Positions 3,564 through 25,839 of a DNA stretch of 28,490 nt are shown here, piece after piece (within the stretch, counting starts at the first letter, position 1; every line of letters begins with the position of its first letter). The DNA lies in the IMG/VR virus record IMGVR_UViG_3300008113_000282, positions 1 through 28,490 of that record; one strand, given 5' to 3'. Origin of the DNA: a virus. The notes below the pieces were generated by a model. That model saw only the letters and a program-made list of their open reading frames with translations, did not search any database and had not been told where the DNA came from. The position numbers and the translations under genes were made by a program.

Positions 3564-4517
3564 TTATGCAAGGATAAACTTCACAATCTCATCAGGGAAT
3601 GCGATATTCACACCCATTTTGAACTCAGATACAAATCGTACTTGATCTGCTTCTTTTGCATAGAAGATTTCGAATTTCTCTTCTTCATTAAGAAGATCAG
3701 TTCCCAAGAACAAGTTGCTCAATCTCATTGCATATACTTTGTTAGTACCATTCAAACCTGCAACTGCAACAACTTTAATTGTTGTACCAGGAAGAATGAA
3801 CTCGCTATCAGCTTTTACATCAATTGAGTAATGGAACTGATTAGCGTCTTTCAATGCAATTGTGTAAGTTCTGAACAAATCTTGACCGCAGAAGATAGTC
3901 ATATCATCAGCAGCTACAACTTGAGCAGGGATTGCTTTGTAAACACCATCAAAAATGCTGATTACGTTAGCAGAAGTAATGCTTGACAAAGGAGCACCAG
4001 AAATGTAAGTTGAAGCATTTGCAGCAACAACACCAGATGCAGCACCAATCAATTTAACCAAACCATCAAATTTGTTAAGGTTTACGTTAACTGAATCAGT
4101 GTCACCTTGCCACAAAGCAGTTTCAAGTTGAGCAGCAATTCTTTTAGCTTTCTTTTCAGAAAACTCTTGTTCGAATGGGATGCTGTCATACATTGAACCT
4201 GTAGGCAATGCCTTTTGAAGATACTTTGCTTCCAAATCTTTAGGGCAAAGAGCTTCGTTTACTTTAATTTTACCAACAGTCACTGTTCTTTGAGTGAAAG
4301 TTGTAGAACCAGATGCAGTAAATCCGCAAGAACTTCCTGATTGGAAAATTGCGTCTGTGTCCATAATGTTAATGGTTTCAGATGATTTAACACCTACCAT
4401 TACGTTACCTGCACTCTTAATCAAAGATGCAGTCTTAGCACCAAGCACACTTGAAGTTACAAGTAATGCTTCGTTTTGTTCTGTGTAATCTGCCAATGCA
4501 GAAACGTTAAATGCCAT
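3564..4517 (-). CDS. Major capsid protein
   Basis: The 317-residue protein starts MAFNVSALADYTEQNE, a beginning typical of major capsid proteins in Bacteroidota phages, and continues with a helical segment (EFSEKKAKRIAAQLETALWQG) and beta-rich parts (IFQSGSSCGFTASG; PGTTIKVVAVAG). It has its own terminator just after the stop and an A-rich leader (AAAATTAAAACAAAATG), both fitting high expression. An HK97-type fold is likely but cannot be shown by eye. Confidence 0.8.
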   Translation of the reverse strand: MAFNVSALADYTEQNEALLVTSSVLGAKTASLIKSAGNVMVGVKSSETINIMDTDAIFQSGSSCGFTASGSTTFTQRTVTVGKIKVNEALCPKDLEAKYLQKALPTGSMYDSIPFEQEFSEKKAKRIAAQLETALWQGDTDSVNVNLNKFDGLVKLIGAASGVVAANASTYISGAPLSSITSANVISIFDGVYKAIPAQVVAADDMTIFCGQDLFRTYTIALKDANQFHYSIDVKADSEFILPGTTIKVVAVAGLNGTNKVYAMRLSNLFLGTDLLNEEEKFEIFYAKEADQVRFVSEFKMGVNIAFPDEIVKFILA

Positions 4518-23955: not shown

Positions 23956-24633
23956 TTATTTTTTTAATAAGTTATCAAAATATTCAGCTACTGCCATTCT
24001 TCTGCAAGCTAATTCCATGTATTCATCATCTTCTAACAACTCATTCATTTCTTTTTTTTCTTTATATGAAGCATATAAGAATTTCTTTTTTATTGCTTCT
24101 TCTGTTCTTTTTAAAGTACCTTCAAAATCTGTTATTAAGTTTTGTTTATACAAAATATTAAAACATCTTAATCCATAGAATATATGCTCCCAGTCTTTGT
24201 TTTTCTTGTAAATATCCATTGACATTTGTAATATTTCATCATCTGATATTTTTGGAGCTTCTATTTGCTTTTGTTCTACAGGTTTTTCTTCAATTTTATG
24301 TCTATAAGCCCATCTTGCATATGATGTCATTAATCTTGAAAGATACAATGCTGAAAAATTTTGATATGTTTCAGGATTTTCATCAAGTTTGTTTTTAATC
24401 ATTAAATCAAAAGCTAATTTAAACTCACCAATCGGTAACTGTCCATAATCAACTCTCATCATTTGACTCATGTATTTTATTTCAAATTCTGATGGTAATC
24501 TTTCTCCTTTTACACCTAAAAGAATCATTGCTTTTGTTATAATCTCAACTATATCAATAGTTGATGAGTCCATTAGCTTTGGAGTCTTCTTGGCTTCCGA
24601 TAGAAGCTCTAAGTCTTTCGTAATAGTCTGCAT
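23956..24633 (-). CDS. Unknown protein in replication operon, helicase-loader position
   Basis: A 225-residue helical protein. The central part (about 60-115: DYGQLPIGEFKLAFDLMIKN, then ETYQNFSALYLSRLMTSYARWAYRH) resembles a conserved segment I associate with unannotated Bacteroidota phage replication proteins. No Walker A motif is visible, so it is not a DnaC-type ATPase. It directly follows the replisome organizer, where many phages place the helicase loader. The ATG at 24633 gives an 80-base overlap; ATG at 24573 (residue 21) would shorten this to 20 bases and is an alternative. Function remains a positional guess. Confidence 0.65.
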   Translation of the reverse strand: MQTITKDLELLSEAKKTPKLMDSSTIDIVEIITKAMILLGVKGERLPSEFEIKYMSQMMRVDYGQLPIGEFKLAFDLMIKNKLDENPETYQNFSALYLSRLMTSYARWAYRHKIEEKPVEQKQIEAPKISDDEILQMSMDIYKKNKDWEHIFYGLRCFNILYKQNLITDFEGTLKRTEEAIKKKFLYASYKEKKEMNELLEDDEYMELACRRMAVAEYFDNLLKK

Positions 24634-25222
24634 ATATTTCCGTTTTTGTTTTTGGTGATTTAAAACTATTGTTAAAATTAGAATTATTTATCCAAACTGC
24701 TAACATTTTTTGTTTCCAATTTTTTACTGGTTTTCCTTTGCTATCATGCCAATTAGCAGTTTCATAATATTCAAAAGCTTGTTTTGCCTTTTCTACAGTT
24801 GATCCTTTTTCTATAAAATAATCTTCAACTTCTGAAACTGTTGGCTTCTTTAATCTCTTATTTTTATTTTCATTTATATTTTCATTTTCATTTTCCATAT
24901 GCATAGGCATATGCTGTTGCATATGCTCAGGCATATGCTTAGTTTTTGCATTATTTCTTCTTGAATTGGTATAATTTGACCTCTTTTCTGATTCATCAAA
25001 CATTCTCTTATTGATATAATACCCATCTACAAGTTCAAATTTATCATATACATCAGGTGCATATGCTTTGCATATGCTTAGCATATCCTTTTCTGTTAAC
25101 TTACCTTTTTGATGTTGCAAACATAATAACCTTATGTACATTCCAACTTCTTCATTTGTCATTGAAAATGTTCCACTTAAAAAATCACTTGTATAAAATA
25201 AGACTGCTGGATCTTTTGCCAT
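24554..25222 (-). CDS. Replisome organizer-like replication initiation protein
   Basis: The 222-residue product starts with a winged-helix-like domain (about 1-80; KDPAVLFYTSDFLSG, NEEVGMYIRLLCLQHQKG) of the kind found at the N-terminus of phage replisome organizers and DUF1376-type proteins. A low-complexity linker follows (about 95-122: His-Met repeats, then Glu-Asn repeats). The C-terminal domain (about 125-190; EVEDYFIEKG, NWHDSKGKPVKNWKQK) is typical of the same family. Such proteins bind origin repeats and bring in the helicase loader. The linker and part of the N-domain are encoded by the iteron-like repeats, as in lambda O. The end overlaps the next gene by 80 bases. Confidence 0.7.
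   Translation of the reverse strand: MAKDPAVLFYTSDFLSGTFSMTNEEVGMYIRLLCLQHQKGKLTEKDMLSICKAYAPDVYDKFELVDGYYINKRMFDESEKRSNYTNSRRNNAKTKHMPEHMQQHMPMHMENENENINENKNKRLKKPTVSEVEDYFIEKGSTVEKAKQAFEYYETANWHDSKGKPVKNWKQKMLAVWINNSNFNNSFKSPKTKTEIYADYYERLRASIGSQEDSKANGLINY
24895..24942. repeat. Iteron-like cluster A, four 12-base direct repeats
   Basis: Units start at 24895, 24907, 24919 and 24931, each with core GCATATGC (the first begins CC) and a variable four-base spacer. The period is exactly 12 bases, close to one helical turn. It encodes the His-Met-rich linker (residues 96-109) of the replisome organizer. Confidence 0.8.
25059..25088. repeat. Iteron-like cluster B, three GCATATGC copies
   Basis: GCATATGC starts at 25059 and 25070, and a one-mismatch copy GCATATCC at 25081, spaced exactly 11 bases. 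On the coding strand they fall in three different codon frames (GAT ATG; AGC ATA TGC; GCA TAT GCA), so protein repetition cannot explain them. Confidence 0.7.
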
Positions 25223-25275
25223 AAAATAAAAATCCCTGAATGGGATTGGAAATGCAGTTCCGCACCCATCAGGGA
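25223..25275 (-). terminator. Terminator-like leader hairpin 2 abutting the start codon
   Basis: On the minus strand TCCCTGA pairs with TCAGGGA (seven pairs), then TGGG with CCCA beyond a bulged T. After an internal loop, GGAA pairs with TTCC around the loop CTGCAT. The run TTTTTATTTT follows directly and touches the ATG at 25222. A strong stem plus U-tract is an intrinsic terminator. Because no promoter is visible between it and the gene, it must act as an attenuator if the gene is expressed. Confidence 0.75.
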
Positions 25276-25293
25276 CATTAATGTTTTCTTATA

Positions 25294-25309
25294 GAAGGCT
25301 GCATCCTTC
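25294..25309 (-). promoter_or_regulatory. Leader hairpin 1, loop AUGCAG
   Basis: GAAGG and CCTTC form a five-pair stem around the six-base loop ATGCAG (minus strand). It begins where the transcript from the 25316 promoter should start. The loop is the exact reverse complement of the apical loop of hairpin 2. Confidence 0.55.
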
Positions 25310-25315
25310 GTATTG

Positions 25316-25345
25316 CAAATTTAACAATTAATTTCTAAATTACCA
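25316..25345 (-). promoter_or_regulatory. Candidate promoter for the replisome-organizer operon
   Basis: The -7 box TAAATTTG (25316-25323) matches TAnnTTTG; 19 bases upstream lies TGG, one base off the -33 TTG. Predicted initiation, 5-7 bases downstream of the box, falls at about 25309-25311, the first base of the first leader hairpin. The promoter overlaps the end of the DnaA-like gene. Confidence 0.45.
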
Positions 25346-25839
25346 TGATTAATTTTTAATCTACCTTCAATAATATCTTTACATTGATTGTATTTTGATG
25401 CAAAAATTTCATCTACTTCTAATAAATTCTTGCATTTTTTAACAGAACTTATAACTGTAGTATGATCAGCATATGTAGATAAATATTCACCTATTTCTTT
25501 GTAACTTAAATCAGTATATGTTCTTAAAAGTAAACATACACAATGTCTTGCATCAGTAACTTTTCTATGCCTTGTTTTTAACCTACAATCTGTTTCAAAA
25601 ACATAATTTACACTTGCTATTACTTCATCAGCTGGCTTATGTGTATAAACAGCAGTTCTTTTAGTTAATGGATAATGTTCTAAAAGACGCTGTAGTTTTA
25701 ACATGCTTTCTTCATGTTCTTTTATAATACGGGTAAAATCATTAATAATATTAAGAATAGTATTACGAGTTACTATATGTGTCCCTATTTGATTCTTTAA
25801 TATATTAGAATTAATTCTTAGTTCATCTACATTAATCAT
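25321..25839 (-). CDS. DnaA domain IV-type DNA-binding protein, no AAA+ ATPase
   Basis: Residues about 70-150 of this 172-residue protein match DnaA domain IV: basic helix R90-R98, the helix CLLLRTYTDLSYKEIGEYL, and the signature DHTTV (residues 125-129) that contacts DnaA boxes. The N-terminal 65 residues are a charged, probably coiled helix unlike DnaA domains I-III; there is no Walker A or B motif. It should therefore bind DNA sequence-specifically without ATP-driven oligomerisation. The next gene downstream contains the repeat clusters described below, a natural target. It could be an initiator, an origin-remodelling protein, or a competitor of host DnaA. Confidence 0.75.
   Translation of the reverse strand: MINVDELRINSNILKNQIGTHIVTRNTILNIINDFTRIIKEHEESMLKLQRLLEHYPLTKRTAVYTHKPADEVIASVNYVFETDCRLKTRHRKVTDARHCVCLLLRTYTDLSYKEIGEYLSTYADHTTVISSVKKCKNLLEVDEIFASKYNQCKDIIEGRLKINHGNLEINC

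Follow-up and report, generated by a model that had tools for sequence, protein, structure and literature searches.

The window, by which we mean the whole stretch of DNA analysed here, is an IMG/VR virus record of 28,490 bases, and the leader that concerns us is read on its minus strand. The leader occupies the 98 bases between a gene for a protein with a DnaA C-terminal helix-turn-helix domain, whose stop codon overlaps the promoter box, and a gene at the head of the replication module (Table 1). The N-terminus of the downstream protein resembles DUF1376 (Pfam PF07120, E 3e-6, under the curated cut-off), and the protein is weakly similar to a primosomal-protein family (PHROG 9327, E 1.8e-5); a protein search gave 239 relatives in viral contigs, and 80 loci were retrieved. 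The phage also encodes a terminase, a portal, a head protease and tail proteins. The 30 window proteins scanned against PHROGs included neither an integrase nor a repressor, and no lysogeny genes were found in the window.

Table 1. Genes and leader features in the window, in the order in which they are read
Feature	Position	Strand	Basis
Upstream gene, DnaA C-terminal helix-turn-helix domain	25321..25839	-	Pfam PF08299, E 9.9e-12
Predicted -7 promoter box TAAATTTG	25316..25323	-	sequence; TAnnTTTG type of the Bacteroidota primary sigma factor
Hairpin 1, GAAGG-AUGCAG-CCUUC, 5-bp stem	25294..25309	-	fold
5' pairing segment X, AUGCAG, loop of hairpin 1	25299..25304	-	covariation with Y; RNAalifold
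A-rich linker, 18 nt, with AAAACATT	25276..25293	-	sequences
Hairpin 2, UCCCUGAUGGG...CCCAUUCAGGGA, terminator-shaped, inner stem GGAA/UUCC	25233..25275	-	fold
Partner segment Y, CUGCAU, apical loop of hairpin 2	25252..25257	-	covariation with X
U-tract UUUUUAUUUU, from hairpin 2 to the start codon	25223..25232	-	sequence
ATG of the downstream gene	25222-25220	-	sequence; the U-tract runs into the ATG
Downstream gene, 222 aa, head of the replication module	24554..25222	-	protein profile matches

The two hairpins, with their loops AUGCAG and CUGCAU and the terminator shape of the second, lie where a first-pass annotation of this DNA had placed them; they can be read directly from the sequence and folding agrees. 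The minimum free energy of the leader is -29.5 kcal/mol (z -2.84), and 1 of 200 shuffled sequences folded as well. The same annotation had put the start of transcription at about 25309, exactly at the first base of hairpin 1. The promoter box it relied on is present, but flavobacterial start-site mapping places this box at -12 to -5 (PMC9723704, PMC6847099), so that the predicted start moves to about 25311 and hairpin 1 begins at +3. This start is a prediction from conservation rather than from mapping: a TAnnTTTG box lies immediately 5' of segment X in 20 of the 25 leaders checked, while the 54 such motifs in the window, against 51 expected, are not significant alone. Since the tract between hairpin 2 and the ATG is only about 11 nt long, it leaves no room for a promoter, as had also been claimed. 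A second TAAATTTG box is found at window positions 25036-25043, within the downstream gene, and a start there would lead to a shortened product.

Covariation between the loops and its spread among phages

The first-pass annotation had proposed a kissing interaction between the two loops, and had cautioned that the self-complementary TGCA core in both raises the odds of a chance match. We aligned the 19 distinct leaders nearest to that of the window. Across this alignment, 99.1% of cells in the six-pair X-Y helix are paired, with double compensatory changes at all six pairs (36 cells) and no one-sided changes; relatives without complementary loops, named beforehand as the outcome that would speak against the interaction, are thus not what the alignment contains. 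Shuffled and slid controls never approached this covariation, and RNAalifold, unprompted, chose the X-Y helix over hairpin 2. The stem of hairpin 1 is paired in 75% of cells, with double changes at two of its four pairs; hairpin 2 is paired in 86.5% of cells in its stem and 94.7% in its inner stem. The concern over TGCA has lost its force, as most relatives lack this core in their loops and still keep the pairing (GTGAGACG/CGTCTCAC, GGTAGCCG/CGGCTACC and others). Leaders 5' of related genes, taken from the protein-search loci, likewise carry different yet complementary loops.

The pattern extends well beyond these relatives. A blind detector that needs only a promoter, a 5' segment and a hairpin enclosing the complement of that segment found 60 sites at a score of at least 24, against 1 in dinucleotide shuffles, and 76 against 9 at a score of at least 22. 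Further members were found by pattern scans that left the 5' segment free. Families A-C were retrieved by patterns or homology imposing no condition on X, and every promoter-bearing match among them has a full partner. In family B at least eight different 9-nt 5' segments occur, each with its matching partner, on a body whose near-constancy is partly an artefact because the search pattern fixed it. The 8-bp helix tested in this family is 100% paired, with double changes at five of its eight pairs. Families C and D have two or three alleles each. With family A as its sole input, a covariance model recovers both L053 (E 3e-4) and the leader of Muminvirus (E 0.0015); the automatic consensus of covariance model R1 took the X-Y helix and not hairpin 2, so that it serves as a rough search tool only.

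The element is also found in cultured lytic Flavobacterium phages and in Cellulophaga phages. Muminvirus and Lillamyvirus carry the alleles GTGAGACG/CGTCTCAC, GTGAGAAG/CTTCTCAC and GTGGAACG/CGTTCCAC, Elemovirus has three alleles of the leader, and Cellulophaga phages phi19:1 and phi10:1 carry GTACGAC/GTCGTAC.

A chance match of two six-base loops, which the TGCA shared by both would have made easier, is rejected as extremely improbable: the covariation holds in relatives with unrelated loop sequences, in the alignment of the 19 leaders and in that of family B, and the blind detector result of 60 against 1 points the same way. The comparative evidence thus indicates that the complementarity in the window leader is real and not a product of chance, and that X and Y pair to give a predicted kissing-loop or H-type pseudoknot.

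Pairing of this kind might still take place in DNA, with the inverted repeats serving, for example, as a replication origin or as protein-binding dyads beside the DnaA-like gene. The position of the element between a DnaA-domain gene and a primosomal-type gene in the window would suit such a role, but the upstream gene differs in other families. Moreover, the U.G pairs conserved in family B would be mismatches in DNA and therefore argue for pairing as RNA, and the phasing to the promoter and the U-tail also indicate an RNA. We regard a DNA element as very improbable.

Shared layout of the leaders and their gene context

Many leaders that are dissimilar in sequence share one layout, which consists of a TAnnTTTG promoter, a 5' pairing segment, an A-rich linker, a hairpin around the partner segment and a replication-module gene. 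Segment X is 6-12 nt long, lies in a small hairpin loop or at a bare 5' end, and starts at +1 to +11 in most leaders; in family B, which is without hairpin 1, it starts exactly at +1. In our leader table, where automatic placement of hairpin 2 broke down in a few rows and +1 was set arbitrarily for L044, L047 and L058, the distance from X to Y is 41-57 nt in 21 of 22 leaders, mostly 41-49 nt, and 81 nt in family D. The three leaders just named have no recognisable promoter and, together with L010 and L019, were assigned by eye. An interaction in cis fits this layout, with the promoter mostly directly upstream, X near +1 in most leaders and the spacing between X and Y mostly within 41-49 nt. 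An A-rich motif resembling AAAACATT lies between X and Y in the otherwise dissimilar families B, C and L025 as well.

In most metagenomic families, about 10-12 nt separate the end of hairpin 2 from the ATG. In the Mumin-, Lillamy-, Elemo- and Cellulophaga phages, a small gene begins about 30-50 nt 3' of the hairpin, which is followed by a U-rich tail that is weaker only in the Cellulophaga phages. A G+C-rich hairpin with a U-tract precedes the gene in the window and in most families; the tract is strong in most families but weak in family B, and L044 and L058 have none. Termination is therefore probably not a universal output. The earlier proposal, a switch of termination by kissing that might control the dosage of the replication gene, would suit the window, where hairpin 2 is terminator-shaped, but would not carry over to all members, and in relatives with a weak or missing U-tract the output may be start-codon translation or RNA stability.

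These differences bear on whether the pseudoknot acts only after transcription, blocking or docking the ribosome at the adjacent start codon or shielding the replication mRNA from decay at its 5' end, with the terminator shape being incidental. The close approach of the hairpin to the ATG in most metagenomic families would be expected if so, and X-Y pairing is kept in families that lack a U-tract. In Flavobacterium johnsoniae, which has no Shine-Dalgarno sites, structure at the start codon lowers translation (PMC6847099), and families without a U-tract could for this reason use the same fold translationally. We consider action after transcription alone unlikely, given the U-rich tails in most families and the Mumin-, Lillamy-, Elemo- and Cellulophaga phages, in which such a tail is present and the gene lies some 30-50 nt past the hairpin.

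The element is a single-copy, highly structured unit that runs from promoter to terminator; the detector found no second convincing copy in the nine records scanned whole, at a cut-off at which it misses some true leaders (elemoA, L052). Such a unit could itself be the product: a terminated RNA of about 90 nt that has its target in the host or the phage and perhaps works as a multimer, held by its matched loops in the manner of the intermolecular loop interactions of phi29 packaging RNA, with the downstream gene merely read through. We consider this improbable, since the leader stands at the head of replication genes wherever its context is readable, and the terminator tail is missing in some members.

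In annotated genomes the leader heads the replication module and the gene directly after it is swapped. In Muminvirus, Cellulophaga phages and family C, the leader is followed by a gene of about 71 aa, and shortly 5' of this gene there is a second small conserved hairpin, approximately (A/C)GGT(A/T)ATCTNNAAACC(T/G), whose outer pair varies compensatorily (L160, about 4325-4362; L192, about 1500-1543; L078, about 200-240). Short reading frames accompany some leaders. In family B (for example L041, 3106-3147) a 13-codon frame, MKTFLNP(T/I)..TALP*, begins immediately behind the 5' segment, extends into hairpin 2 and may encode a leader peptide; in family D (L012-L018) a leader frame spans the element and its stop overlaps the gene start (ATGA), suggesting translational coupling. 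We did not adopt a conserved leader peptide as an explanation, as frames are present in families B and D but are not kept in family A. Elemovirus isolates have different tRNA genes (Ala or Met) 5' of the leader (L161, 1872-1947; L190, 375-448; L191, 365-438), and this stretch for that reason looks like a recombination-prone cassette.

Proposed action in cis and in trans

We favour, with a probability of roughly 55%, the view that the element is a conserved structured 5' leader RNA of the Bacteroidota-phage replication operon, in which the X-Y pseudoknot gates expression of the replication genes. RNA polymerase would start at the TAnnTTTG promoter, and X would be displayed in the first nucleotides of the transcript. 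Y would emerge about 40-57 nt after X (81 in family D), inside the long hairpin whose end is near the replication-module gene, and X could capture it while the 3' arm of hairpin 2 is still incomplete, forming a co-transcriptional switch. Capture would alter termination by hairpin 2 where a U-tract follows; without a U-tract, it would alter the block that the hairpin places on the adjacent start codon. By either route the leader would gate the reading of the replication genes. We infer the effect of the pairing on termination or start-codon access, and its direction, anti- or pro-termination, is a guess, because kissing is topologically compatible with a complete hairpin 2. If the pairing acts in cis only, the leader would represent a new attenuator class for phages, in a phylum from which few RNA regulators are known.

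As X and Y vary but remain matched, there may also, more tentatively, be encounters in trans between transcripts of one phage type, with feedback on expression. The varying loops give a hint of such self-recognition, a point that the first-pass annotation did not raise. In the fullest form of this idea, a short terminated leader that rises with genome copy number would use X or Y to pair with leaders just being transcribed from phages of its own type, and so shut or open the replication operon; the matched segments would be specificity tags, and the result would be copy control or exclusion of like phages. Some leader pairs differ chiefly in these tags: L052 and L111 at 7 of 14 tag positions against 2 of 94 elsewhere (P 4e-6), L052 and L054 at 5 of 14 against 7 of 96 with flanks 96-97% identical, and L160 and L186 at 4 of 16 against 6 of 99. 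In other pairs (L160/L185, L161/L191, L161/L190, L014/L012 and L014/L066) the tags change no faster than the rest, and universal hypervariability of the tags is accordingly unsupported. Own pairs are more stable than cross pairs (means of -11 to -16 against -1 to -7 kcal/mol), but some family B cross pairs are nearly as stable (-14.4), and the search pattern is in part responsible for the conserved family B body against which its segments vary. In Elemovirus 7-9A and 13-1A, the 394 bases 3' of the leader are 99% identical and the leader is strongly different. Selection for the recognition of self could account for such differences.

The distribution of tags also bears on action in trans. Several tag alleles occur on one host (Muminvirus and Lillamyvirus on LMO6/LMO9, Elemovirus on BAL314), one tag is found with different downstream genes, and there are precedents in the P4 CI RNA and Gifsy-1 IsrK (PMC4825925) and in P1/P7 c4 (PMC5320573). 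Against this, a single short RNA carries both X and Y, so that pairing in cis would come first, and the same pattern of variation could arise by neutral compensatory change or by template switching at the inverted repeats. We consider feedback through matched tags possible but, on balance, unlikely. We think it rather unlikely that the matched segments are exchangeable identity tags by which a resident phage silences the replication genes of later arrivals that share its tag, a process that would drive tag diversification. Were such silencing to occur, lytic phages would have an RNA equivalent of plasmid incompatibility; more generally, tags acting in trans would amount to a self-recognition system in lytic phages. 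Related cultured phages with different tag alleles on one host make the function directly testable.

Comparison with known RNA systems

No non-tRNA match at gathering score to any Rfam family was obtained in the window or in 20 relatives. Weak CRISPR-repeat scores were far under their gathering scores, and we rejected a known Rfam RNA as the identity of the leader. No description of the element was found among the open-licence papers searched. The leader is a widespread and well-supported RNA structure without an Rfam family, located at the step where the phage commits to replication.

Matched loops with variable sequence recall the copy-control antisense RNAs of ColE1, R1 and pT181, in which kissing-loop variation sets specificity and, in pT181, control is by attenuation. 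In those plasmids the antisense RNA comes from the opposite strand, unlike the same-strand pair of the leader. Antisense boxes of the TAnnTTTG type, the type scanned, lie near the leader in 3 of 25 cases, inside it in 2 and nowhere near that of the window; we rejected opposite-strand antisense control because these promoter-like boxes are rare. The phage T4 gene 32 mRNA, also from a replication gene, has a 5' pseudoknot that is bound by the gene's own product. In the present phages, in contrast, the downstream gene is freely exchanged while the leader stays.

Same-strand RNAs are also known from phages. The P1/P7 c4 antisense RNA resembles the leader in being made from the same strand and in having variable loops, which set its target specificity (PMC5320573). 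It has features of its own, being a three-stem RNA that is cut out by RNase P and covers ribosome-binding sites, and the window leader has no match to Rfam C4 even at a relaxed E-value. In Gifsy-1, one promoter gives both a terminated short RNA, IsrK, and a read-through mRNA on which the short RNA acts (PMC4825925). IsrK controls an antiterminator gene, and the description consulted mentions no matched self-complementary loops.

A further likeness is to the CI RNA and the seqA-seqB-seqC immunity leader of satellite phage P4, also a leader of a phage replication operon with same-strand complementary segments, in which premature termination controls the replication genes (PMC4825925). The CI RNA is released by processing, finds its pairing sites elsewhere and maintains lysogeny. 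In the present leaders both partners lie within one short RNA, and Muminvirus, among the cultured carriers, is described as purely lytic (PMC7077304), unlike P4. Lysogenic immunity was rejected as a general role for this reason and because two leader families had no match in 395 Bacteroidia genomes, in a search run without a positive control. We conclude that the type of regulation, by a same-strand leader RNA of a phage replication operon, is already known from P4; what appears to be new is the segment pair, matched, variable and self-contained, together with its wide occurrence among phages of Bacteroidota.
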